The notes under the pieces are model-generated. The model was not told where the DNA came from. It did not search any database and saw nothing but the letters and a program-made list of their open reading frames with translations. Both the position numbers and the translations under genes were made by a program. A stretch of DNA of 23,666 nucleotides from a virus. The DNA is taken from positions 1-23,666 of IMG/VR virus record IMGVR_UViG_3300035698_032233. One strand, 5' to 3'. Positions 2 through 9,847 of the stretch are shown here, piece after piece; positions within the stretch are counted from its first letter, which is position 1, and each line of letters opens with the position of its first letter.

Positions 2-1024
2 ACGACCAAGGTCTGGTGCGACGGCTGGGGGGAGGAGATCGGATCACCGTCGAAGGCCGACGCGGCCGCAGCACTCGATCGGATCTTTCGGTTCGCCGAC
101 GCCGGGCAATGGGAGTCGGACGCCGACGGCGTCGCGTGGCTGGCCCACGTGCTCACCGTCGCTGCCCGGCCTGCGATCGACGGCGAGGCGCCAGCGTTCG
201 TCTACAGCTCTCCGATGCCGGGCTCTGGCAAGTCAACGCTGGCACGCGTCGCAGGCGAGATCGGTGGGAGGTGCGCCGGCTACACGTCGCCCGGCAAGAA
301 AGACGACGACGAAGAGCTGGCGCGCAAGCTCGACACGCACGCGCTCGCTCCCGCGATCATGTTGGACAACATGCGTGGCGTGCTGGCATCTGTGATCCTC
401 GAAGGGGCGATCGCTGGCGGTGTGCTGCCCGTCCGTAGGCTGTACGTCGGGCATGCGCAGGTTCCGTGGCGCACCGTTTTGTCCGTCACATCGAACGGTG
501 CCGAGATCGGGCGCGACTGGGCACGCCGATCGGTGCCGGTCCGTTTGAGTGGCAAGGCCCTCCCCGGCGCCCGTGACGTGCTCGCCGACGCCAAGGCGAC
601 GCCGTCCCTCACCACCGACGCCGTCGCCGTCCTGGGGGCGTGGCTGCGCTCGGGCGAGGCGAGTACATGCACACCACTGCTCGGCTTCGCCTCGTGGTCT
701 CGAGTCGTCGGAGGGGCCATCGCGTGGCTCGGACGTGGCGACGTCGTCGCGGCCACACGCGAGGCGTCGGAAGACATGATCGCCGTCGGCGACGACTCGG
801 GATCGCTGCTCGACGCGATCGAGCAGTGGCTCGAGGATCGCGGCGAAGGCGCCGAGTTCACCGCGCGATCGGCGTGGGAGGCGCAACAGCTGTCCGACGT
901 GCGGTCGGGATTCCGCGACTTCGCGGCGTTCTCCGCGCACCTAGGGCGGTGCTCCGACAAGACCAGGGTGCTTCGTCGCCGGCGGAGCAAGAAAGCGCGA
1001 CTCTGGTGTGTGGAAAAAAGGTAG
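2..1024 (+). CDS. Phage replicative P-loop ATPase/helicase, C-terminal part
   Basis: The reading frame is open from the window edge, so the 5' end is missing; about 340 residues are visible. A nucleotide-binding loop (PGSGKST, about nt 218-238) is followed by a Walker-B-like stretch IMLDNMRG (about nt 355-378). A further conserved strand VTSNGAEIGRDWARRSVPVRL-type segment near nt 484-545 resembles sensor/arginine-finger regions of phage primase-helicase ATPase domains. These features suggest a replicative helicase or primase-associated ATPase that unwinds phage DNA in the cytoplasm. The first glycine of a classical GxxxxGKS loop is replaced by proline, so the Walker A is relaxed. No primase domain is visible, but it could lie upstream. 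The gene ends just before the iteron element at 1053. The ATPase call is firm; the exact family is inferred. Confidence 0.75.
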   Translation, partial: TTKVWCDGWGEEIGSPSKADAAAALDRIFRFADAGQWESDADGVAWLAHVLTVAARPAIDGEAPAFVYSSPMPGSGKSTLARVAGEIGGRCAGYTSPGKKDDDEELARKLDTHALAPAIMLDNMRGVLASVILEGAIAGGVLPVRRLYVGHAQVPWRTVLSVTSNGAEIGRDWARRSVPVRLSGKALPGARDVLADAKATPSLTTDAVAVLGAWLRSGEASTCTPLLGFASWSRVVGGAIAWLGRGDVVAATREASEDMIAVGDDSGSLLDAIEQWLEDRGEGAEFTARSAWEAQQLSDVRSGFRDFAAFSAHLGRCSDKTRVLRRRRSKKARLWCVEKR

Positions 1025-1052: not shown

Positions 1053-1168
1053 GGTGACACTGGTGACACTGGTGTCGCCACTTCGCCAAGCTCTTAAGGG
1101 AGAGGTCCTTAAAGACCTAAATTACAAGGGGTCCTGGGATCGGTGTCACCAGTGTCACCAGTGTCACC
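1053..1168. repeat. 116-bp iteron element, copy A
   Basis: Three 9-bp units (GGTGACACT at 1053 and 1062, GGTGTCGCC at 1071) face three inverted units (GGTGTCACC at 1142, AGTGTCACC at 1151 and 1160) across an AT-richer 62-bp core. The core carries a small stem-loop, TTAAGG at 1094-1099 with CCTTAA at 1107-1112. The reverse complement aligns end to end, without net length change, to the element at 7944-8059. Nothing coding is supported in 1025-1319 beyond this element and the promoter at 1305. Possible roles are an operator, replication origin, partition site or miniature mobile element; the sequence alone does not decide. Confidence 0.85.
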
Positions 1169-1304
1169 CCGACGGGCAGGCGCGCCATCGAGCACACCTA
1201 CGACGCCTGCGAGATCGCCACCCGGCGCGACGCCGCCCGTGAGCGTCGAACGACACCCACCGTGCGGCACTAGCGCCAGAAGCGACATCCCCGACAGCCT
1301 GCGC

Positions 1305-1310
1305 TAGACT
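1305..1310 (+). promoter_or_regulatory. -10-like hexamer TAGACT ahead of the HTH gene
   Basis: TAGACT ends 9 bp before the ATG at 1320. A GCGACA at 1282-1287 sits exactly 17 bp upstream and matches the last four bases of the TTGACA -35 consensus. There is no Shine-Dalgarno sequence, so a very short or leaderless transcript is likely. Confidence 0.5.
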
Positions 1311-1319
1311 CCCGACAGG

Positions 1320-1835
1320 ATGGCGAAGGGGAAAAAGGCGCCGATGACGTCTGCGGGGGTGGCAGCTGCACTCCTGCGCGGAGTGACGCACCCCGACATC
1401 GCCCGACGCCACGGCTGCACCGTGCGCACGGTCGAGCGGTTCATCGCGGCGGAGCGCCGCACGAACGCGCGGTACCCGCAGGGGACCGACGCCGCCGAGA
1501 TCGTCCGGGCGCTGGCTCCTCCCGAGCGCGCGCACGACGCGGCGCCAGCGCTGGTCATGCCCACCCTGCCCGACCTGTGCGACCCTGTGGCGGTGCGCGC
1601 GTACGTGGGCGCGCTCGTCGCGGGGATCGCCAGCTGCGGCGGGGACCCCGTGCAGGTGGTGGCGTGCAGGCTCCTGCTCGAGGGGTGGGGCTCGGCGCCC
1701 ACCGTCACCGGCCCGACGCGGCTCGACCGCGCTGCAGCCGGCGCGCGGATCCTCGCCGCCACCGCCAGCGCCGCGCGGGTGGAGCCCGAGCTCGAGAAGA
1801 CGCCGGTGCCGGGGCGAATCGAGCTCGTGAAATAG
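1320..1835 (+). CDS. HTH DNA-binding protein, candidate small terminase subunit or regulator
   Basis: This is a 171-aa protein with a basic N-terminus (MAKGKKAP) and a helix-turn-helix-like segment at about residues 12-45, including HPDIARRHGCTVRTVERFI, where the second helix would contact DNA. The rest is alanine-rich and helical, ending in an acidic/proline segment VEPELEKTPVPGR. Small terminase subunits and phage regulators both have this build. The position ahead of head genes favours a terminase small subunit, but no large subunit follows, so a regulator is equally possible. The start is preceded by TAGACT and lacks a ribosome-binding site. The last 60 or so bases of the gene recur downstream at 2154-2222 as a non-coding remnant, part of a tandem duplication. 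Confidence 0.65.
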   Translation: MAKGKKAPMTSAGVAAALLRGVTHPDIARRHGCTVRTVERFIAAERRTNARYPQGTDAAEIVRALAPPERAHDAAPALVMPTLPDLCDPVAVRAYVGALVAGIASCGGDPVQVVACRLLLEGWGSAPTVTGPTRLDRAAAGARILAATASAARVEPELEKTPVPGRIELVK

Positions 1836-1838
1836 TCC

Positions 1839-1896
1839 TTGCGCCTCGGCGCGGCGCCGGGTATATACACTGCGTGGGCGGAGAGAGACGCCGCCC
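1839..1896 (+). promoter_or_regulatory. Cassette 1 promoter and leader hairpin
   Basis: TTGCGC at 1839-1844 and TATATA at 1862-1867 are separated by 17 bp, a good sigma-70-type arrangement. The transcript would begin near 1874. It would at once form a stem GGGCGG (1876-1881) with CCGCCC (1891-1896) closing a 9-nt AGAGAGACG loop. Promoter and leader are conserved in the second cassette. Confidence 0.6.
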
Positions 1897-1912
1897 CCGA
1901 AAGCCACACACC

Positions 1913-2098
1913 ATGACCACCGACACCGACACCCGCGCCGCGCTCACCCAGTCCCTCAATCTCGCCCTCGCCGCGCGCATCGCCGCCGATGCAAACTACG
2001 ACGCCGACGGATCGCTAGATGTCGCCGGCGAGCGCGCCGTCTCCGAGGCCTGGACGGCCTACTTCGCGGCAGTCGATGCGCTTTGGGCGCATGGGTAG
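1913..2098 (+). CDS. Small cassette protein, copy 1 (61 aa), unknown function
   Basis: A 61-residue protein starting MTTDTDT and containing NYDADG near its middle; it is acidic and alanine-rich with no signal or membrane segment. I do not recognise the family. The start is fixed by comparison with the duplicate gene at 2318: promoter, leader and the first seven codons are nearly identical, whereas the rest is diverged except for the AAR..A..YDADG stretch. There is no clear Shine-Dalgarno sequence in the conserved leader. With its own promoter and terminator it has the layout of a phage moron, an independently transcribed accessory gene. Confidence 0.65.
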   Translation: MTTDTDTRAALTQSLNLALAARIAADANYDADGSLDVAGERAVSEAWTAYFAAVDALWAHG

Positions 2099-2118
2099 CC
2101 CGCCCCGGCTCCCGCCCC

Positions 2119-2149
2119 GCCCCGTACCTCGAGCCGAGGACGGGGCTTT
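2119..2149 (+). terminator. Rho-independent-type terminator of cassette 1
   Basis: GCCCCGT-A-CCTCG (2119-2131) pairs with CGAGGACGGGGC (2135-2146) around an AGC loop, with one bulged A, and is followed by TTT. The stem is very stable but the T-tract is short. A homologous hairpin follows cassette 2. Confidence 0.6.
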
Positions 2150-2243
2150 CGGGGCGCGGGTGGAGCCCGAGCTCGAGAAGGCGCCGGCGCCGGGGCGGAT
2201 CGAGATCGAGATCGTGAAATAGTCCGGCCGAGTGAAATAGACC

Positions 2244-2301
2244 TTGCACCTCGGCCCTCCCAGGTATATACCTCATACGTGGGCGGAGAGAGACGCCGCC
2301 C
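2244..2301 (+). promoter_or_regulatory. Cassette 2 promoter and leader hairpin
   Basis: TTGCAC at 2244-2249 is followed by TATATA at 2265-2270 (15-bp spacing) or TATACC at 2267-2272 (17-bp spacing). The leader hairpin GGGCGG (2281-2286)/CCGCCC (2296-2301) and its loop are identical to those of cassette 1, while the spacer between the promoter boxes has diverged. Confidence 0.55.
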
Positions 2302-2317
2302 CCGAAAGCCACACACC

Positions 2318-2614
2318 ATGACCACCGACACCGACACCGCCACCACCACCGCCACCGCCACCGAGCTGCTCGCCGCCGCCACCAAGCTCCTGCCCGCCGC
2401 GCGCACCGCGTACGACGCCGACGGCAACCCCGCCGGCGTCATCTACTTCGCGGCGGAGACGCGGCTGTGGTACGCCGTCGGCGTGGCCGATCTCGCCGCG
2501 CTCGTCGAGGGGCGGAGCCACGACTGGTATAGCGAGTGGTGTGCGGACTCGGCCCCGGTGGGCGAGGGCGGCGCCGCAGACGATGCAGCCTCGGACGCCG
2601 GCTGGAGGTTGTAG
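2318..2614 (+). CDS. Small cassette protein, copy 2 (98 aa), unknown function
   Basis: A 98-residue protein starting MTTDTDTATTT, paralogous in its first residues and in the YDADG segment to the 61-aa product at 1913. The longer C-terminal half (VIYFAAETRLWYAVGVADLAALVEG, then an acidic tail with two tryptophans) is absent from copy 1. The start chosen is the ATG conserved between the cassettes; upstream GTG codons in the frame lie in the conserved non-coding leader. No known domain is recognised. Its arrangement between its own promoter and terminator suggests an independently expressed accessory protein, possibly acting on the host or on superinfecting phage; that role is only inference. 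Confidence 0.7.
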   Translation: MTTDTDTATTTATATELLAAATKLLPAARTAYDADGNPAGVIYFAAETRLWYAVGVADLAALVEGRSHDWYSEWCADSAPVGEGGAADDAASDAGWRL

Positions 2615-2635
2615 ACCGCCCCGGCCCACGCCCCG

Positions 2636-2661
2636 CCCCGTACCTCGCAGGAGGACGGGGT
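2636..2661 (+). terminator. Terminator-like hairpin of cassette 2
   Basis: CCCCGT-A-CCTC (2636-2646) pairs with GAGGACGGGG (2651-2660) around GCAG, followed by only two T residues. It is homologous to the hairpin at 2119-2149 and lies just ahead of the GTG start of the lipoprotein gene at 2671. Confidence 0.5.
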
Positions 2662-2670
2662 TCGCGCGGT

Positions 2671-2943
2671 GTGACCACCCGCATCATCGCCTCCCTCGCC
2701 GCCCTGATCGCCGCCGCGTGTGACCCCGCTCCGGTCTACTGCGACCCCGCCTTGGCCGCCGGCGTCGAGCACACCATCGAGCTGCAATACTCGCCGTGCG
2801 TGCTCGAGTGCCTCGACGAGCAGCTCGGCTGCCTGTCGGCCGAGGGCCCGGGCGTCACCGAGGCGTGCAGGGCGTGCGAGTTCTCGGCGTCGGTCTGCCG
2901 CTCGGAGTGCACCCCGCCCGTCATCACCGGGGGTGCGCTGTGA
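2671..2943 (+). CDS. Cysteine-rich lipoprotein
   Basis: Translation from GTG 2671 gives a 90-residue protein with a short signal peptide, MTTRIIASLAALIAAAC, whose final AAAC can act as a lipobox cleaved by signal peptidase II. The mature part holds eight further cysteines in a compact 70-residue segment, suggesting disulphide-bonded folding outside the cytoplasm. Lipoproteins in phages include outer-membrane spanin subunits and superinfection-exclusion proteins; nothing here decides between them, and the Cys content is atypical for Rz1-type spanins. The gene overlaps the methyltransferase start by GTGA. The signal peptide resembles that of the lipoprotein at 8476-8853 (TT..IASL). Confidence 0.6.
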   Translation: MTTRIIASLAALIAAACDPAPVYCDPALAAGVEHTIELQYSPCVLECLDEQLGCLSAEGPGVTEACRACEFSASVCRSECTPPVITGGAL

Positions 2944-3470
2944 GCCCCGCTCCGCGCGTGATGCGGAACTCGGGCAACAACGAGTGGTACACCCCGCCGC
3001 GCTTCCTCGTGGCCGCGCGCGTGGTGATGGGCGGTATCGACCTGGACCCCGCGAGCTGCGCGGTGGCCAACGTCGCGGTGGGTGCGACGACGTACTACGA
3101 CGCGGCGTCGGACGGGCTCGCCCAGCGATGGGCGGGGCGGGTGTGGATGAACCCGCCCTACGCGCAGCCGCTGATCCGCCAGTTCGTCGACAAGCTCGTG
3201 GACTCGTACTCGGCCGCCGACGTCGAGCAGGCGATCGTGCTGGTCAACAACAGCACGGAGACGGCGTGGGCGCAGCGGCTGGGCAGGGCGGCCACCGCGA
3301 TCTGTACCCCGGCGGGGCGCATCCGGTTCCTTGACGCAAATGGGGTACTAGTGCCAGGGAGCCCGCTGCAAGGGCAGCAGATCTACTACCTCGGGGACGG
3401 TGCGGGCGCGTCGCGCTTCGTCGGGGCGTTCGACATGTTCGGCTTCGCCAGGCTATACAATAGGCCATGA
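2940..3470 (+). CDS. Phage Dam-like DNA N6-adenine methyltransferase
   Basis: A 176-aa enzyme expected to transfer a methyl group from S-adenosylmethionine to adenine N6 in phage DNA. The catalytic motif NPPY is at residues 71-74 (WMNPPYAQP). The N-terminal NNEWYTPPRF and DLDPAS (34-39) are characteristic of the short phage Dam family (Pfam DNA N-6-adenine-methyltransferase). Its length is that of a complete member. The start is GTG overlapping the lipoprotein stop (GTGA); a longer upstream ATG frame reads through the lipoprotein gene and is unlikely. No restriction endonuclease partner is visible, so it is a solitary methylase, probably protecting phage DNA from host restriction or marking it for regulation. 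The target sequence cannot be read from the protein. Confidence 0.88.
   Translation: MSPAPRVMRNSGNNEWYTPPRFLVAARVVMGGIDLDPASCAVANVAVGATTYYDAASDGLAQRWAGRVWMNPPYAQPLIRQFVDKLVDSYSAADVEQAIVLVNNSTETAWAQRLGRAATAICTPAGRIRFLDANGVLVPGSPLQGQQIYYLGDGAGASRFVGAFDMFGFARLYNRP
3454..3459 (+). promoter_or_regulatory. -10-like TATACA(AT) ahead of gene 3467
   Basis: TATACAAT at 3454-3461 lies within the end of the methyltransferase gene. The TATACA hexamer ends 7 bp before the ATG at 3467, matching the leaderless pattern seen elsewhere in the window. Confidence 0.45.
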
Positions 3471-3736
3471 CCGACACCGACACCGACCTCGCCATCGCCG
3501 CCCCGCCGTCGAGAGACGCGCGGGGCTCAGGGCGTGTGACCGACACAACCCGCAAGACCATCTCGGCACTCAGCGCCGCGATCTGCTCAAACATCCGCAT
3601 CCGCGCACTGCGCGGGCGCCCGCTCCCGCTCCTCGCAGACACCCTGACGTGGTGCGAGCTGGACTCGCTCGTGTCATGGGGCTCTCGCCCGACGGCGGTC
3701 GACACCATCGTGGTGGACGTGGGTGGTGGTCGATGA
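3467..3736 (+). CDS. Hypothetical 89-aa protein
   Basis: The ATG overlaps the methyltransferase stop (ATGA). The protein begins MTDTDTD, reminiscent of the MTTDTDT starts of the two cassette proteins, but shows no further similarity to them. The middle (TRKTISALSAAICSNIRIRALRG) is basic and helical and the end (TAVDTIVVDVGGGR) is beta-like. No recognised domain, signal or membrane segment is present. It may be expressed both by coupling and from the internal -10-like element at 3454. Confidence 0.6.
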   Translation: MTDTDTDLAIAAPPSRDARGSGRVTDTTRKTISALSAAICSNIRIRALRGRPLPLLADTLTWCELDSLVSWGSRPTAVDTIVVDVGGGR

Positions 3737-3807
3737 CCCTGTCCGACCGACTCGACCACACGGTGATCTGCTGGGTCGCCCCTGGCGGTGCTACCATCCC
3801 CGGGTGA
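3733..3807 (+). CDS. Possible 24-aa micro-protein
   Basis: An ATGA overlap with gene 3467 opens a 24-codon frame (MTLSDRLDHTVICWVAPGG...) that ends by overlapping the GTG start of the next gene. It may be a real coupling ORF or merely spacer carrying the promoter of the membrane protein. Evidence is positional only. Confidence 0.3.
   Translation: MTLSDRLDHTVICWVAPGGATIPG
3792..3797 (+). promoter_or_regulatory. Extended -10 (TGC-TACCAT) for the membrane protein
   Basis: TACCAT preceded by TGC gives an extended -10 element. It ends exactly 6 bp before the GTG at 3804, the spacing expected when transcription starts on the start codon. The surrounding sequence closely matches that ahead of the wedge gene (20886-20901). 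Confidence 0.5.
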
Positions 3808-4175
3808 CCGCCATCACGCACGCCATCGCCCGGTACCAGACGCACCTCGCCCTCGTGTGTGTGCTCGCGCTCGCCGTGGACGCAGCAGGGCTGTACGCCC
3901 TGCCCGCCACCGCGGTGTCGGTCTTGGTCGCGATCGCCGCGGCGGTCGGAGTCAAGCGACCGAGCGAGGTCGCGTTGCGCCTCGCCGCCGAGGTCGGTCC
4001 TCACCCACGCGGGCGATCGATCACGGTGGCGAGCATGATCGCGGTCGTGCTCGGCGCCCTCGCCCTGCACGAGCCCGAGCCCACCCCATCGCCGACTCCG
4101 CGACGCGCCGCGCCGGAGCAGAGCCCCGACACTACCGGGGGCGAGAGCAGCAGCTCGAGCGGGGGGTCCACGTGA
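3804..4175 (+). CDS. Holin-like small membrane protein
   Basis: A 123-aa protein with three hydrophobic segments at about residues 15-33, 35-50 and 72-89, a basic loop between the last two, and a Pro/Ser-rich hydrophilic C-terminal tail. Three segments, small size and a charged tail fit a class I holin, which would form the inner-membrane lesion at lysis. No endolysin is adjacent, so the call rests on topology only; an unrelated phage membrane protein is possible. The GTG start at 3804 is preferred over an upstream GTG at 3723 because of the extended -10 at 3792 and because the upstream extension would overlap gene 3467. Confidence 0.5.
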   Translation: MTAITHAIARYQTHLALVCVLALAVDAAGLYALPATAVSVLVAIAAAVGVKRPSEVALRLAAEVGPHPRGRSITVASMIAVVLGALALHEPEPTPSPTPRRAAPEQSPDTTGGESSSSSGGST

Positions 4176-4330
4176 GTGAGCCCGCGCCCGCGCTGGTGTG
4201 CCCATGTGGCGGTAGCGTCGACGCGTGTCGACTCACCCGCGCTGCCGGGTGCCCGTACGCGCCTGCGCCTCGCACCGACTCCCGCCCGTCGGACGAGGAT
4301 CCGACTCCGCAGGTGGATCGCCGTGGCTGA
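4172..4330 (+). CDS. Small cysteine-rich, possible zinc-binding protein
   Basis: A 52-aa protein begun at a GTG that overlaps the preceding stop. Cysteines at residues 10, 12, 19 and 27 (VCPCGG...ACRLTRAAGCPY) could ligate one zinc ion, followed by a disordered, charged C-terminus. Function is unknown. Tight overlaps on both sides support it as a genuine member of the operon. Confidence 0.5.
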   Translation: MSEPAPALVCPCGGSVDACRLTRAAGCPYAPAPRTDSRPSDEDPTPQVDRRG

Positions 4331-4463
4331 GGGAGCGTCGCCGATCCGGCGCGTCGACCCTCGGCGGGTCTCCGCGTACACCGAGCGCCACCTCGCGATC
4401 TGGAGCGTGTGTCTGTGGCTCTGCGCGCGCCATCACACCGCAGGCACGGTGCGCGATGTCTAG
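4323..4463 (+). CDS. Hypothetical 46-aa protein
   Basis: A GTG-started frame overlaps the previous gene by 8 bases and the protease gene by 8 bases (ATGTCTAG). The product (VAEGASPIRRVDPRRV..., with IWSVCLWLCARHH) is basic, with two Cys and a CARHH segment, but no recognised domain. It could be a short coupling ORF. Confidence 0.4.
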   Translation: MAEGASPIRRVDPRRVSAYTERHLAIWSVCLWLCARHHTAGTVRDV

Positions 4464-5649
4464 GCGCGTCCGATACGATCGACTCGCGCCGCTCTGGATC
4501 GTGACGGAGCTCGGCGACGCGCCGACACCGACGCGCACGCCGGCGGCGCTCACCCCAGAGGGATACCTCGAGGCGGATGCCCTGCTCGCGCGCGACGGGC
4601 TGCTGCGGTACTCCGACGCGACCGGATCGTGGCTCGAGCACCGCCCGCGCGACGAGCTCGATCGCGCCGCGTGGACGTGGGCCCACGCGCCGATCACCGA
4701 CGATCACCCGCCCGAGATGGTATCGGCGGCGACGCACAGCGCGGTCGCCCGCGGCGTCGTGCTCGGCACTCCGACAGTGATCGAGCTAGACGGCGTCGGG
4801 TACCTGCGCGCGCGCGTGCGTATCTCCGACGCGGCGCTCGTCGCTCGTGTCCTCGCCGGGCACGACCAGCTGTCGATCGGTTTCGTGGCGACCGTCGAGC
4901 CGACGCCGGGCACTCACGATGGGCAGCGCTACGACGCGGTGCAGCGCGAGCTCGCCGGCAATCACGTCGCCGTGGTGGCGCTCGGGCGTGCTGGTCCCGC
5001 GTGCCGGATCCTGGATTCCGCGACGTGCTACGCTACTTCCGTGCCTGCTACTCCCATCGCTCACAAAATCACCGCCAAGCGCGACGAGGCGGGCTCGCCG
5101 TCCACCGTGGCGACCGTCACTGGTCCCGAGGGTACCGAGGTCGAGGTACCGTCGTGGGTCGCCGCGGCGGTCGAGTACGCGAGGAGCAACGGATGGCTGG
5201 GCATGGGGGGACCCGAGCCCGAGGCGGCGCCCGAGATGCCCTCCGCCGATGCGCCCGAAGACCCCGAGAAGGACCCCATGATGCGCCCCGATGCCGTCTC
5301 CAAGCTCGTCGCCCGAGCTAAGGCGGACGCGGTCGCCGAGGCGTCCATGCTCTCGCAGCTCCAGCGCCGAGCCGATCGAGCGGGCATCCCCGCGATCAAA
5401 GTCGACTCGCTCGACTACACCGGGCTCGCCCGCGCGTACGTGACCCAGCTGTGCCCTCACCTCCGGGCGATCGCCGACGCCGCCACCGGCTCCGCGCTGT
5501 CGCTGCTGGTCGAGGCGGCTCACGCCACCCCGGCGCAGCCCGTCGCCGCCAACCCCTTTGAGCGCCGGGCGCCCGTCGCCGACGCAGCCAGTGACCCCGA
5601 GGTCCTGGCACACGCCGCCTACCTTGTTCGTATGGGCTTCAGCCGCTAG
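4456..5649 (+). CDS. Prohead protease (DUF2213-type) with scaffold-like C-terminal region
   Basis: A 397-aa protein with two parts. Residues 1-190 resemble DUF2213 head-maturation proteases, with conserved DDHPP (82-86), QLSIGF (candidate nucleophile Ser140) and NHVAVV (candidate His170). It should cleave scaffold and capsid precursors inside the prohead. After a junction near residue 196 the C-terminal 200 residues are charged and helical, with no catalytic motif, as in scaffolding proteins. The longer frame upstream of 4456 is rejected because it overlaps two small genes; ATG 4456 overlaps the preceding TAG. A GTG at residue 196 is preceded by an extended -10, suggesting the C-terminal half is also made separately. 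The gene ends in a double TAGTAG. Confidence 0.82.
   Translation: MSRRVRYDRLAPLWIVTELGDAPTPTRTPAALTPEGYLEADALLARDGLLRYSDATGSWLEHRPRDELDRAAWTWAHAPITDDHPPEMVSAATHSAVARGVVLGTPTVIELDGVGYLRARVRISDAALVARVLAGHDQLSIGFVATVEPTPGTHDGQRYDAVQRELAGNHVAVVALGRAGPACRILDSATCYATSVPATPIAHKITAKRDEAGSPSTVATVTGPEGTEVEVPSWVAAAVEYARSNGWLGMGGPEPEAAPEMPSADAPEDPEKDPMMRPDAVSKLVARAKADAVAEASMLSQLQRRADRAGIPAIKVDSLDYTGLARAYVTQLCPHLRAIADAATGSALSLLVEAAHATPAQPVAANPFERRAPVADAASDPEVLAHAAYLVRMGFSR
5029..5034 (+). promoter_or_regulatory. Internal extended -10 (TGC-TACGCT) inside the protease gene
   Basis: TACGCT, preceded by TGC, ends exactly 6 bp before an in-frame GTG at 5041. It has the same layout as the promoters at 3792 and 20889. 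It would start a leaderless message for the C-terminal half. Confidence 0.45.
5041..5649 (+). CDS. Putative nested scaffolding protein (in-frame internal start)
   Basis: Starting from GTG 5041 the same frame yields 202 residues (MPATPIAHK...), that is, the protease without its catalytic part. Composition is charged and helical, with an EPEAAPEMP acidic linker, a central LVARAKADAVAEASML helix and an RAPVADAASDPEV tail. Phages lambda (C/Nu3) and Mu (I/Z) make their scaffold from an internal start within the protease gene, so the arrangement has precedent. Support here is the junction position, the extended -10 and the start spacing; the separate product itself is inferred. Confidence 0.45.
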   Translation: MPATPIAHKITAKRDEAGSPSTVATVTGPEGTEVEVPSWVAAAVEYARSNGWLGMGGPEPEAAPEMPSADAPEDPEKDPMMRPDAVSKLVARAKADAVAEASMLSQLQRRADRAGIPAIKVDSLDYTGLARAYVTQLCPHLRAIADAATGSALSLLVEAAHATPAQPVAANPFERRAPVADAASDPEVLAHAAYLVRMGFSR

Positions 5650-5661
5650 TAGGACGCCGCC

Positions 5662-6825
5662 ATGATCACGCAATACCCCAACGGACTCACTCCCGCGATC
5701 CAGGGCCAGAGCCTCGCCGCGCCTCGGCGATGCAAGCCGATGCAGTTGCCTCTGCTCGCGCAGATCGACGATCACACGATCACCGGTGGAACCACCACCG
5801 ACGACGTGACGCTGCGAGTGCTCGACCGCGAGAGCGGCGTCACCCACCAGATCGTGATCCCCGGCAACGCGACGGAGGCGACGCTACTCGCGTCGATCCT
5901 CGCCGCGGTGCGAGCGAACGCGCAACTCAACGCGCTGTTCGCCGTCGCCGACGCCGGCACCGGTGCGAACGTCATCGTACGCTTCACGGCTCGGCACGCG
6001 AACCGTGCATACACGATCTCGTCCGTCGGCGGTCCCTCGGGTCCTGCTGTCGCGGGTAGCACCGCGGTGGTGCAGGCGCCAGGCGGAGCCGGTCTCACGT
6101 TCGGGTCGCTCGTCGCGCGCGGCGACGATGACAATTCTTTCGCCTCGATCGGGGCCGCCACTACCCTCACGCAGATCACCGGCGCGCTGTGGCGTGACGA
6201 GAGCCTGTTCCAGGATATCCCAGCCCCCCTATCGGTGGCGGTCCCCAACGCGGTGCCGCTCTCGGTCCGCGGGCGACACTACCCGATCGCCGAGCTGATC
6301 CGAATGTGGGTCACCGTCGAGACCGCGGTCACCCCCGCGAGCGCGGTGCACGTGCGTAGGGCGCTGACGTCGGGCGCTGGTACCGTCGGCTCGGGCTTCC
6401 GCGCGACGGCTGCGGGCGTCGCCCAGGTCGCCACCGTGACCCCTGGCGCGGGGCAGAACTCCGTGCCGCTCTCGATTGAGATCCGCATCCTCACCGGCGC
6501 GCGCGCGGGGCAAAGCAAGGTCCTGTTCCATCAGTCCGATGCGTCCATGACGGCCACCGAGGCGGCGGACGCGTTCCGTGCCGACCTCGCCGCCGACGTC
6601 GGTTTTTCTTCGGCTGTCGCCGGCACGGGCACGGCGACGCTGATCCTGACCGCCGCATCGGCAGACGTGACGTTCACCGTGGACGTCATCGAGGGCACGT
6701 TCACGGTCGCCGAGGCGACCACCGCCGGTGCGACGCACACGATCGACGTGAGCAGCGTCGCCAAGTTTGAGAGCTCGGCCCCCGCCGGCGGGCTCGCTGT
6801 GCTCGCGATCAACCTCCAGCCGTAG
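5662..6825 (+). CDS. Capsid cement/decoration protein with two repeated beta modules
   Basis: A 387-aa protein between protease and major capsid gene, the usual site of a structural cement or decoration protein that binds the capsid lattice. Two copies of a beta-helix-beta module are visible, at about residues 47-122 (with ATEATLLASILAAVRA) and 256-345 (with TATEAADAFRADLAAD). Each contains a strand, an alanine-rich helix, then an AGTGA/T strand followed by F/Y-T-V/I. Similar modules occur in three other structural genes of this window. A region around residues 195-215 (PLSVRGRHYPIAEL) is distinct. A weak AGGA sequence lies about 10 bases ahead of the ATG. The decoration role is inferred from position. 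Confidence 0.65.
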   Translation: MITQYPNGLTPAIQGQSLAAPRRCKPMQLPLLAQIDDHTITGGTTTDDVTLRVLDRESGVTHQIVIPGNATEATLLASILAAVRANAQLNALFAVADAGTGANVIVRFTARHANRAYTISSVGGPSGPAVAGSTAVVQAPGGAGLTFGSLVARGDDDNSFASIGAATTLTQITGALWRDESLFQDIPAPLSVAVPNAVPLSVRGRHYPIAELIRMWVTVETAVTPASAVHVRRALTSGAGTVGSGFRATAAGVAQVATVTPGAGQNSVPLSIEIRILTGARAGQSKVLFHQSDASMTATEAADAFRADLAADVGFSSAVAGTGTATLILTAASADVTFTVDVIEGTFTVAEATTAGATHTIDVSSVAKFESSAPAGGLAVLAINLQP

Positions 6826-6848
6826 CCCCAGAGTAGCAGAGCACCACC

Positions 6849-7931
6849 ATGAAGACTCCATCCCCTCTCGTACTGCAGCGCGCCGCGCAAGAGATCGCCG
6901 ACCGTCGAGACGCCACCAGCGAGTGTGCGCAGCGACTCGTCGCTCTCCGGCGAGCCAAGGCCGACCTCGCGCCGATCTGGTCGCAGAGCCTGGTCTACAC
7001 GTACTCGCAGGTCGAAGAGGTCCCATACCCGGATCTGCCGGCGCACGAGGGCATGGTGCTCCCGATCGACACCGCGGTTGACCCCGCGTCGATCGATTAC
7101 GAGTACTTCCAGGTCGACCGGGGCGGACTCGCCGACTGGATCGACGAGCAGGGCAACGTGATGCACTCGTCGTTCCTCACGTCGCAGCGCTTCACCGGGC
7201 GCCACCACGAGATCGGGCACGGCTACGAGTGGACGATCTTCGACCTCGAGCGCTCCGCGATGGCGAACTTGCCGTTGCCGAAGCTCAAGCAGGACATCGC
7301 ACGTCGAGCGCATGCGGAGAAGACCGAGTGGGTGTGGATGTACGGTGATTCCGCGAAGGACCTGAAGGGCCTCGCGACCCACCCCAACATCCCGCGCACG
7401 CTCGCGCCTCTCAACGCTGGCGCCACCTCGCGTTTGTGGGCGAACAAGACCGCCGACGAGATCATGGCGGACATGACCCTGTTCCTCGATGCGATCCCCG
7501 CGGGCTCGCAAGAGATGCACTTCGCGACCAAGGTGCTGATGCCACCGAGCCTGATCCGTGTCCTGCGCTCGCGCTTCGTCGCCGCGACTGCGGACGGCGC
7601 CGTGTCGCTGTGGGATCGGCTGCAGAAGCTCTATGCCGGCGACGCCGCAGGTCAGGGCAAGGTCGAGTTCGTCTCGATGCGCACGCTCGCCGGCGCGAGT
7701 CGCATCAACCCGCTCACGGGCACCGACACCAGCGGTCTCGCTGGAGACCTCATGATCGCCCTGCCCCCCGACGACGTGAGCCGAGCGGCGTTCATCCGCG
7801 CGCGCCCGTTCACCACGCTGTCGCCACAGGAAGATGACTTCTCGATCAAGACGCTGACGCACTCCCGCATCGGCGGGGCGAAGATCGTCTACCCGCGATC
7901 CATCGCGATCTTCGAGTTCGGCGTCACCTGA
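6849..7931 (+). CDS. Major capsid protein (DUF2184-type)
   Basis: A 360-aa protein of the HK97-like coat lineage, forming the icosahedral shell. The order is typical of the DUF2184 family: a helical N-terminus, an early VYTYSQVEEVPYPDLPA stretch, a central helical segment ending GDSAKDLKGLATHPNI, a DEIMADM helix, a MPPSLIRVLRSR strand/helix, and a final TLTHSRIGGAKIVYPRSIAIFE beta segment. The N-terminus shows no long scaffold domain, consistent with a separate scaffold. It follows the cement gene by 23 bases and is followed by the second 116-bp element. Confidence 0.88.
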   Translation: MKTPSPLVLQRAAQEIADRRDATSECAQRLVALRRAKADLAPIWSQSLVYTYSQVEEVPYPDLPAHEGMVLPIDTAVDPASIDYEYFQVDRGGLADWIDEQGNVMHSSFLTSQRFTGRHHEIGHGYEWTIFDLERSAMANLPLPKLKQDIARRAHAEKTEWVWMYGDSAKDLKGLATHPNIPRTLAPLNAGATSRLWANKTADEIMADMTLFLDAIPAGSQEMHFATKVLMPPSLIRVLRSRFVAATADGAVSLWDRLQKLYAGDAAGQGKVEFVSMRTLAGASRINPLTGTDTSGLAGDLMIALPPDDVSRAAFIRARPFTTLSPQEDDFSIKTLTHSRIGGAKIVYPRSIAIFEFGVT

Positions 7932-7943
7932 TCCTCTACCGGG

Positions 7944-8059
7944 GGTGACACGGTGACACCCGGTGACACCGATCCCAGGACCTCTTGTACTTTTACTCCT
8001 TAAGGACCTCTCGCCTATAGAGAGGTAAAAAGGGAGTCACCGGGTGTCACCGTGTCACC
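7944..8059. repeat. 116-bp iteron element, copy B (inverted relative to copy A)
   Basis: GGTGACAC units at 7944, 7952 and 7962 face GTGTCACC-type units at 8035 (degenerate), 8044 and 8052. The core contains the palindrome CCTTAAGG (7998-8005) and a stem ACCTCTC (8006-8012)/GAGAGGT (8020-8026) around GCCTATA. The block 7962-7981 is the exact reverse complement of 1131-1150, and 8002-8011 of 1101-1110. The element occupies most of the gap between the capsid gene and gene 8111. Confidence 0.85.
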
Positions 8060-8479: not shown

Positions 8480-8853
8480 TCGCCGACCTCATCAATTCCC
8501 TCTGTCCGTACCATCGGCGGGTCGATCCATGGGGATCCGCGGGCTGTAGACCCGTCGCGCTTCGGCGCACAGGGGGTTCGATTCCCTCCCCGCCGACAAC
8601 CATCGCATCCCTGCTCCTACCTGCCGTCGCCCTGGCCCTGGCCGCGTGCGGGAGGGTGTGTCCCGAGGGCGAGGTCTGGGGCCCGGTCGAAGGGCACTAC
8701 AGCTGGAGTTGCGTCCCCTGCGACGGCGGCGGAGACGACCCGGACAGGTGCCCCGAGGCCCCCGGATCGGGGACCGGAGGATCCGCGACGACGACCACCG
8801 ATCCGACGGCGGCAGACACCACGACCGAGGCGTCCAGCCCCAAGAAGCACTAG
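8476..8853 (+). CDS. Lipoprotein with Thr-rich linker; 5' end overlaps a tRNA gene
   Basis: The frame from GTG 8476 (GTGA overlap with the previous gene) encodes 125 aa, but residues 14-40 are read from the tRNA gene and look non-protein-like. A convincing lipoprotein signal starts at about residue 41 (TTIASLLLPAVALALAAC) with Cys58 as the lipidated residue. The mature part has four cysteines and a low-complexity Gly/Thr linker (GTGGSATTTTDPTAADTTTE) typical of surface lipoproteins. No ATG, GTG or TTG lies in frame between the tRNA and the signal peptide. Either translation starts at 8476, a non-standard codon (ATC 8602) is used, or the gene lost its start. The role is unknown; a spanin or surface-exclusion protein is possible. 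Confidence 0.45.
   Translation: MIADLINSLCPYHRRVDPWGSAGCRPVALRRTGGSIPSPPTTIASLLLPAVALALAACGRVCPEGEVWGPVEGHYSWSCVPCDGGGDDPDRCPEAPGSGTGGSATTTTDPTAADTTTEASSPKKH
8515..8596 (+). tRNA. tRNA-Tyr (anticodon GTA)
   Basis: The acceptor stem CGGCGGG (8515-8521) pairs perfectly with CCCGCCG (8589-8595), with A73 at 8596. The D arm is GATC/GATC with a short CATGGG loop. The anticodon stem is GCGGG/CCCGT with loop CTGTAGA (8544-8550), anticodon GTA at 8546-8548. A long variable arm GCGC-TTCG-GCGC (8557-8568) is the class II form expected of bacterial tRNA-Tyr. The T arm is GGGGG-TTCGATT-CCCTC. CCA is not encoded (CAA follows A73). The D loop lacks the usual A14, so the D arm is slightly degenerate. C1-G72 and G37 are unusual for a bacterial tRNA-Tyr. 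Confidence 0.85.
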
Positions 8854-8856
8854 ACC

Positions 8857-9213
8857 GTGCCATACGCCACCGACGCAGACCTGCTCGCGCGAGTGCCCGC
8901 CGCATCGGCGGCGAGCAGCGTCGCGCGTGCGCTCGCCCTGGCGGACGCCGCGGCGATGATCGACGACGCGCAGTTCGGCGGGAGATCCGTCCGAGCCAAC
9001 GTCGTACTGGCGGCACACTACCTGCAGCTCGGCGGGCTGCTGCCCGGGGGCGAGGGCGGGCTCGTGGCGTCGCGCGCCGCGGGTGCGATCTCGGTGTCGT
9101 ACGCTGTACCTACGTGGAGCGCCGACGTCAATCCTGGTCTGGCGAGCACCATCTACGGTCGTCAGTATCTGGAGATCGTGGCGACCCTCGTGTCGGTACC
9201 GGAGGTGGGGTGA
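8857..9213 (+). CDS. Head-tail connector/adaptor protein (DUF4054-type)
   Basis: A 118-aa protein of the DUF4054 pattern: a short N-terminal helix (TDADLLARVP), then ADAAAMIDDAQFGGRSVRANVVLAAHYLQL, a Gly-rich turn (LPGGEGGLVASRAAGAISVSYA), and a Tyr-containing helix (TIYGRQYLEIV). Members join the portal to the neck after DNA packaging. The GTG start lies 3 bases after the lipoprotein stop and in the same frame. The downstream gene overlaps its TGA. Confidence 0.75.
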   Translation: MPYATDADLLARVPAASAASSVARALALADAAAMIDDAQFGGRSVRANVVLAAHYLQLGGLLPGGEGGLVASRAAGAISVSYAVPTWSADVNPGLASTIYGRQYLEIVATLVSVPEVG

Positions 9214-9605
9214 TGGTCGATCGACGTCTGCCACCCGCCGCACCGTCGCCGCCGTCGGGTACTTACGCCCGCGTGGAGTCGCTGGGCGAGCAGCTCGACA
9301 GAGTGTTGACCAAGCTCGACACCATCGACTCGCGCGTGCGTGAGTCGGAGCTGATCACCCGCGAGGCGCTGGTAGGGCTGCGGCTCGAGGTGAGCCACAT
9401 CCGCGACCTGCTCGATCGGGCTAGTCGCGATCACGCCGATCTGCGCCTCGAGGTGCGGTCCGCAACCGGGCGCTTGGACAAGCTAGAGGATGACGCGGCG
9501 GAGCAACGCGGTGGTCGCCTCGCGGCCGCAGGCGCTGGGATCGGTGGTGGTGCCGCAGTCGGCATCCTCGCCGAGGTCATCCGGCGCGTGGTGGGTGCCG
9601 GGTGA
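9213..9605 (+). CDS. Coiled-coil protein with C-terminal membrane-like helix (XhlA-like)
   Basis: A 130-aa protein: a proline-rich head (residues 1-17), a long heptad-type coiled coil (about 20-97, including LGEQLDRVLTKLDTIDSRV and VSHIRDLLDRASRD) and a glycine/alanine-rich hydrophobic segment (103-121, AAAGAGIGGGAAVGILA) with positive charges at the very end. This is the layout of XhlA-type haemolysin/holin accessory proteins, which anchor at the membrane. Its position inside the connector cluster is odd for a lysis gene, so a small structural protein is an alternative. ATG overlaps the preceding TGA. Confidence 0.5.
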   Translation: MVDRRLPPAAPSPPSGTYARVESLGEQLDRVLTKLDTIDSRVRESELITREALVGLRLEVSHIRDLLDRASRDHADLRLEVRSATGRLDKLEDDAAEQRGGRLAAAGAGIGGGAAVGILAEVIRRVVGAG

Positions 9606-9847
9606 GCTCCGTCGATCACCGCTTCCGCGATTTGATCGAGTCGCTCGACGCTCTGCGCGTCGGGCTGGTCGAGCGCGCCGTCGAGCTCGCGATCATCGCA
9701 GACGACGCGCGGCGCGGGGCCCCACGCCGAGAGATCGCCGAGCGCGTCGACGGCGTAGCGCGCAGGCTCGCCCTGTCCCTCGAGTCCGTCCACCGCCTCT
9801 CCGGCGGGGACATCACCGTACCCATCGACGTGGAGCCCCAGAAATGA
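9602..9847 (+). CDS. Hypothetical 81-aa helical protein
   Basis: A GTG start overlaps the previous stop (GTGA). The product is charged and mostly helical (FRDLIESLDALRVGLVERAVELAIIADDARRG, then EIAERVDGVARRLALSLESVHRL). It has no known domain, Cys or membrane segment. Coupled translation on both sides supports expression with the neck genes. Confidence 0.55.
   Translation: MSSVDHRFRDLIESLDALRVGLVERAVELAIIADDARRGAPRREIAERVDGVARRLALSLESVHRLSGGDITVPIDVEPQK

Follow-up and report, generated by a model that had tools for sequence, protein, structure and literature searches.

The two elements and their neighboring genes

The virus record IMGVR_UViG_3300035698_032233 was analyzed as a stretch of 23,666 bases (hereafter the window), with an overall GC content of 69.6%. 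The window contains tailed-phage genes that encode a head protease (DUF2213), a major capsid protein (PF09950), a DUF3383 protein, and a baseplate J protein, and its start lies within a gene for a P-loop replicative helicase. Downstream of this helicase gene and of the capsid gene are two 116-bp elements, named E1 and E2, in which short repeats (iterons) form inverted arms around an AT-richer core and which we consider to be candidate replication sites. E1 starts 28 bp past the stop codon of the helicase gene, and E2 starts 12 bp past that of the capsid gene, in agreement with a first-pass annotation that had placed the second element after this gene. The separation between the two is 6.8 kb. 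The features are as follows.

2–1024, plus strand: C-terminal part of the P-loop replicative helicase gene, truncated at the contig start; its product is the proposed binder of E1 and E2
1053–1168, no strand assigned: E1, 116-bp inverted-iteron element; proposed origin element
1053–1079, plus strand: E1 left iteron arm, GGTGACACT GGTGACACT GGTGTCGCC
1081–1140, no strand assigned: E1 AT-richer core, 48% GC; proposed unwinding region
1142–1168, minus strand: E1 right iteron arm, GGTGTCACC AGTGTCACC AGTGTCACC
7944–8059, no strand assigned: E2, 116-bp inverted-iteron element; proposed second site of the replicon
7944–7970, plus strand: E2 left iteron arm, GGTGACAC GGTGACAC CC GGTGACACC
7971–8032, no strand assigned: E2 AT-richer core, 45% GC
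8033–8059, minus strand: E2 right iteron arm, GGAGTCACC GGGTGTCACC GTGTCACC

The coordinates and identical length of the two elements given by the first-pass annotation are correct, as are its matches of 20/20 bases between 1131–1150 (reverse complement) and 7962–7981 and of 10/10 bases between 1101–1110 and 8002–8011. Each element is an imperfect palindrome, as described there: the arms of E1 (28 nt) are 93% complementary and those of E2 (27 nt) are 96% complementary, each pair enclosing 62 nt. The GGTGACAC units in the inverted arms are spaced 8–10 bp apart in both elements. The claim of three units per side holds for this layout, with two degenerate members: the third unit on the left of E1 (GGTGTCGCC) and, in E2, the third on the right (GGAGTCACC). 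The window has ten exact GGTGACAC words, all within E1 and E2 and none elsewhere. The 62-base stretch with the lowest GC content of the window lies in E2, and the E1 region is tied for second.

The two elements are homologous in inverted orientation. Without gaps, the reverse complement of E1 matches E2 at 78 of the 116 positions, compared with 60/116 in direct orientation. For the iteron-free cores, the inverted alignment has a score of 31 (mean 7.7 and maximum 16 in 2000 dinucleotide shuffles), whereas the score of the direct alignment (11) is inside the shuffle range (maximum 15). The homology had been reported to extend from end to end; it is strong across about 76 bases (79% identity) and weak toward the far side of the core. 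An arrangement in which one element carries an inverted core, with the outer flanks alike in direct orientation, was also considered and dropped (0.06–0.07 in shuffles). As single-stranded DNA, E1 and E2 fold far more strongly than shuffled sequences (z of −5.4 and −7.3, respectively). The core of E1/E2 was not found elsewhere in IMG/VR, blastn searches with both elements had no match in the phage and plasmid collections searched, and an Rfam search likewise had no match. The sign of the GC skew switches close to E1; with only 23.7 kb available and most genes pointing one way, this feature was not considered informative and was not used.

The helicase open reading frame (ORF; 2–1024) matches PHROG 29234 (E = 2e-17). 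For this fragment, no Pfam match was found (the D5 and DUF5906 families were not matched), and a profile search against solved structures had no match. An AlphaFold model of the fragment had a mean predicted local distance difference test (pLDDT) score of 32 and was discarded. In IMG/VR, neither the helicase nor the capsid protein was found to have a close relative.

Iteron arrays at replication genes of other genomes

A pattern scan of genome contigs identified CAIVJW010000363.1 (hereafter C363), a contig labeled as an uncultured deltaproteobacterium, with the same gene order. In C363, a helicase relative (37–40% identity to the window helicase over the matched part) is encoded after a Toprim/CHC2 primase gene, and a GGTGACA palindrome composed of three GGTGACAC and three GTGTCACC units follows 25 bp past the stop codon of this helicase gene. 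Neither the gene after this array nor the core of the palindrome is similar to its counterpart in the window, so what the two loci have in common is the helicase and the iterons. Relatives of the helicase are present in 42 of 284 genomes of the same phylum. The alignment with eleven of these relatives indicates that the Walker A, DN, SN/GNN, and RR motifs are all kept in the window protein and that its basic C-terminal end includes a W.V motif. Judging from this alignment, the C-terminal end resembles a winged helix and is a putative DNA-binding domain. One of the relatives has a Prim-Pol domain, and the primase part of the window helicase, if any, would fall beyond the contig start.

Palindrome-pattern scans of IMG/VR returned 39 stretches in one case and at least 120 in another. 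The large genes near the arrays listed include those for Prim-Pol, VapE-like, DUF5906, and D5_N proteins, with DUF3987 in a genome contig. Other arrays listed are inside an HTH_36 lambda-O-like gene, and some neighbors are terminases or have no match. Among the matches listed, 112 dereplicated arrays were compared, with local profiles, to random positions in the same loci (2000 draws). Of these arrays, 32 are no more than 300 bp from the 3' end of a primase-helicase gene (4.3 expected; maximum of 15 among the draws) and 19 lie inside lambda-O-like genes (1.6 expected; maximum of 7). After exclusion of the seed loci and their relatives, the corresponding numbers are 20/90 (3.0 expected) and 10/90 (0.9 expected). 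At primase-helicase genes, 32 arrays lie on the 3' side compared with two on the 5' side, and in 82% of arrays the core is AT-richer than its own locus. BLAST searches with the arrays of two other phages found no match in phage and Escherichia coli collections, and no description of a GGTGACA phage iteron was found in the literature searched.

Not all similar repeats are at such genes. The related contigs L125 and L160, which contain terminase- and portal-like genes (by eye), have four and five GGTGACAAGGTGA palindromes, respectively, with short loops and mostly at gene junctions, and the arrays at L061 and L069 are at chromosomal-looking loci. Similar repeats can thus be something else, perhaps resembling the repetitive extragenic palindromic (REP) type.

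The association was also examined without reference to the motif. A total of 80 VapE-type loci, 64 of them distinct, were collected by protein, with a query alignment built from GGTGACA-array loci, and an iteron cluster was defined as one 7-mer occurring at least four times within 300 bp at the gene 3' end. Such clusters are present at 46 of the 64 VapE loci versus 88 of the 980 control tiles (9%); therefore, iterons 3' of VapE-type genes are a general feature. The repeated words vary (GGTGACA, TGTGACA, GGTTACA, GTTGACA, and others), the commonest being GTGACAC and GGTGACA. This variation by phage at the VapE 3' ends (loci L186–L265), often among words that look like GGTGACA variants, is suited to a study of co-evolution with the DNA-binding domain.

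Two other phages were found to have more than one element. In IMGVR_UViG_3300032236_001323 (L072), two AT-cored homologous GGTGACA copies are directly oriented and separated by 5.75 kb; a PriCT_2/DUF5906 gene is next to one of them, and the other is upstream of a terminase gene. IMGVR_UViG_3300044796_000232 (L183) has three homologous copies, one of them adjoining a Prim-Pol/DUF3987 gene at its 3' end. Elements 2029–2102 and 3456–3537 of L183 are inverted and, by eye, flank a LexA-like gene. L072 and L183 show no sign of close kinship to the window phage, so this multi-element layout may have arisen repeatedly. Among full-size phages, a layout with two elements appears to be rare.

Comparison with known origins and alternative explanations

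The current understanding of the primase-helicases of P4 and of phage-inducible chromosomal islands (PICIs) is that they act on iterons located directly 3' of the gene that encodes them, and P4, in which crr and ori cooperate, is the well-studied case of a two-site phage origin. In the P4 record (NC_001609), a distance of 46 bp separates the 3' end of the gene for the alpha primase-helicase from crr (4291–4590). Two direct 120-bp repeats make up crr, with type 1 iterons (GGTGAACA), present on either strand, surrounding an AT-rich core; ori (9086–9809), about 4.7 kb from crr, has six more type 1 iterons. The window resembles P4 in the position of an element directly 3' of a replication helicase gene (at 28 bp), in an AT-rich core surrounded by iterons of both strands (in units of 116 bp), and in the presence of a second iteron-bearing site (at 6.8 kb). 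However, its iteron is GGTGACAC, and GGTGAACA is absent from the window. In addition, alpha contains Toprim, D5_N, DUF5906, and Pox_D5 domains, whereas the window helicase fragment has no alpha-type domains, as judged by the lack of a Pfam match. In P4, ori does not duplicate crr, whereas the two sites in the window are single, homologous, and inverted. Finally, P4 is a satellite; the second site in the window is adjacent to a capsid gene.

Similar origins are known from other elements. In PICIs, including the Staphylococcus aureus pathogenicity islands (SaPIs), the origin is directly 3' of the initiator gene, and two iteron sets flank an AT-rich region (PMC6092414). E1 is likewise directly 3' of an initiator/helicase gene, and both E1 and E2 have an AT-rich region flanked by two iteron sets. 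However, one origin per element is described for PICIs, which are satellites without capsid genes of their own. The origin of pRN1 is a stem-loop of about 100 nt (21-nt stem and 58-nt loop), located 54 bp past the primase-helicase gene and needed for replication (PMC4234260). It is comparable to E1, with its 28-nt stem and 62-nt loop, although pRN1, a plasmid of archaea, lacks iterons in its stem-loop. Lambda-type origins are comparable to the GGTGACA palindromes inside the HTH_36 initiator genes of other phages, whereas E1 is outside the gene and is next to a helicase rather than an O-like protein. Taken together, the window is a close fit to the P4/PICI/pRN1 plan, but its iteron sequence and helicase family set it apart from P4 replicons in the strict sense.

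These comparisons, the shared order in C363, and the general link between arrays and replication genes suggest that E1 and E2 represent one iteron-type replication element in two copies, which would be bound and melted by the putative helicase encoded upstream of E1 (probability of about 0.7). The replication-site option listed in the first-pass annotation has strong support for E1, which is in itself quite likely a replication site, and extends to E2 by inference. By analogy, E2 is plausibly a functional part of the same replicon. The helicase, probably through its winged-helix-like C-terminal domain, would bind the inverted GGTGACAC iterons, assemble at both sides of the AT-rich core, and melt this core such that a replication fork starts. 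E2 would provide a second binding site, which may fire as a second origin or cooperate with E1, as in P4 crr and ori. That the two sites truly cooperate as one origin is a tentative proposal. Equally speculative is a more extended model, in which two inverted copies of one palindromic iteron element make up a bipartite origin similar to P4 crr/ori: the helicase would occupy both sites, the head-gene block would form a loop between them, and initiation would be coupled over 6.8 kb. GGTGACA elements would then form a widespread but little-described class of origin, shared among several unrelated tailed-phage initiator families.

Several observations weigh against the replication role proposed for E1 and E2. 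The putative DNA-binding domain of the helicase was read from an alignment, and the gene is cut by the contig start. Another 20 helicase relatives have no array in the flanks of about 1.5 kb examined, and some GGTGACA palindromes are at loci without a recognized replication gene. Furthermore, C363 has one element, which is the sole tandem GGTGACA site of its metagenome-assembled genome, and none of 42 VapE loci was found to have its iteron word clustered again at a distance, within the flanks examined. The last two points, together with the apparent occurrence of one array in most phages that have any, are also consistent with E1 as the only origin, such that E2 would be a duplicate that does not contribute to firing, or would limit copy number as a decoy by titrating the initiator. 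Moreover, the core is not shared with C363, and the likeness of the E1 and E2 cores may thus reflect a recent duplication. Nevertheless, E2 retains both arms and the AT-rich core, and P4, L072, and L183 are all cases of more than one site. We consider an origin function limited to E1 to be possible, with less in its favor than a replication role shared by both elements.

The location of both elements close past a stop codon and their strong folding may also suggest REP-like gene-end palindromes with a function at the RNA level, either in transcription termination or in mRNA stabilization, and the GGTGACAAGGTGA palindromes of L125 and L160 are indeed at several gene junctions. This explanation is improbable. 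A scan for terminators (a short G+C-rich hairpin followed by a T run) found none at E1 or E2, and the homology of the two elements includes their non-stem cores. In addition, a GGTGACA palindrome follows the related helicase in C363, and arrays are concentrated at replication genes. A stricter palindrome pattern matched none of 379 genomes of the phylum of C363, although the core-length limits of this pattern miss C363 as well.

Even less probable are operators for a regulator, or partition/packaging sites. The inverted repeats of E1 adjoin ORF 1320–1835, which has a weak match to HTH_23 and which the first-pass annotation had put forward as a helix-turn-helix (HTH) regulator acting on the elements; two of the three L183 elements also flank a gene resembling a LexA-type repressor (by eye). 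However, the gene in the same place in C363 is unrelated in sequence to ORF 1320–1835, whereas the helicase is shared, and a scan limited to sigma-70-like promoters found none near E1 or E2. The least probable explanation is a miniature mobile element or a pair of recombination sites that invert the 6.8-kb head block, both raised in the first-pass annotation: the homologous inverted copies have terminal arms of 27–28 nt, as in miniature inverted-repeat transposable elements, but neither a target-site duplication nor identical sequence is visible at the element borders, the core and both elements lack matches in the collections searched, the 379 genomes yielded no palindrome match, and the inversion, although physically possible, has gained no support. 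For the operator, mobile-element, and inversion explanations, there is no positive support beyond the repeat geometry.

Other features of the window and implications for phage origins

Further features were observed in the window. A tandem duplication (1773–1933 and 2154–2338) comprises the end of ORF 1320–1835 and a 107-bp leader (85–91% identical), and the duplicated leaders precede two small ORFs that start with MTTDTDT. The gene at 2952–3470 matches PHROG 111 (DNA methyltransferase). A tRNA-Tyr gene (anticodon GTA; 8515–8597) is located about 450 bp past E2, within the block of structural genes. The contig end (23575–23666) is a C/G-rich, low-complexity run in a glycine-rich ORF and is possibly low-quality sequence.

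With these results, an unexplained pair of repeats becomes a testable replication module. They also provide a simple rule for finding phage origins: look for inverted iterons either directly downstream of a primase-helicase gene or within a lambda-O-like one. The first part of this rule held in a set of loci chosen without the motif. The GGTGACA iteron is found with initiators of the VapE/D5, DUF3987, and lambda-O-like types, and it may be asked whether these have a common mode of DNA binding or a common host factor. The window phage, L072, and L183 would be further cases of two-site phage origins beside P4.

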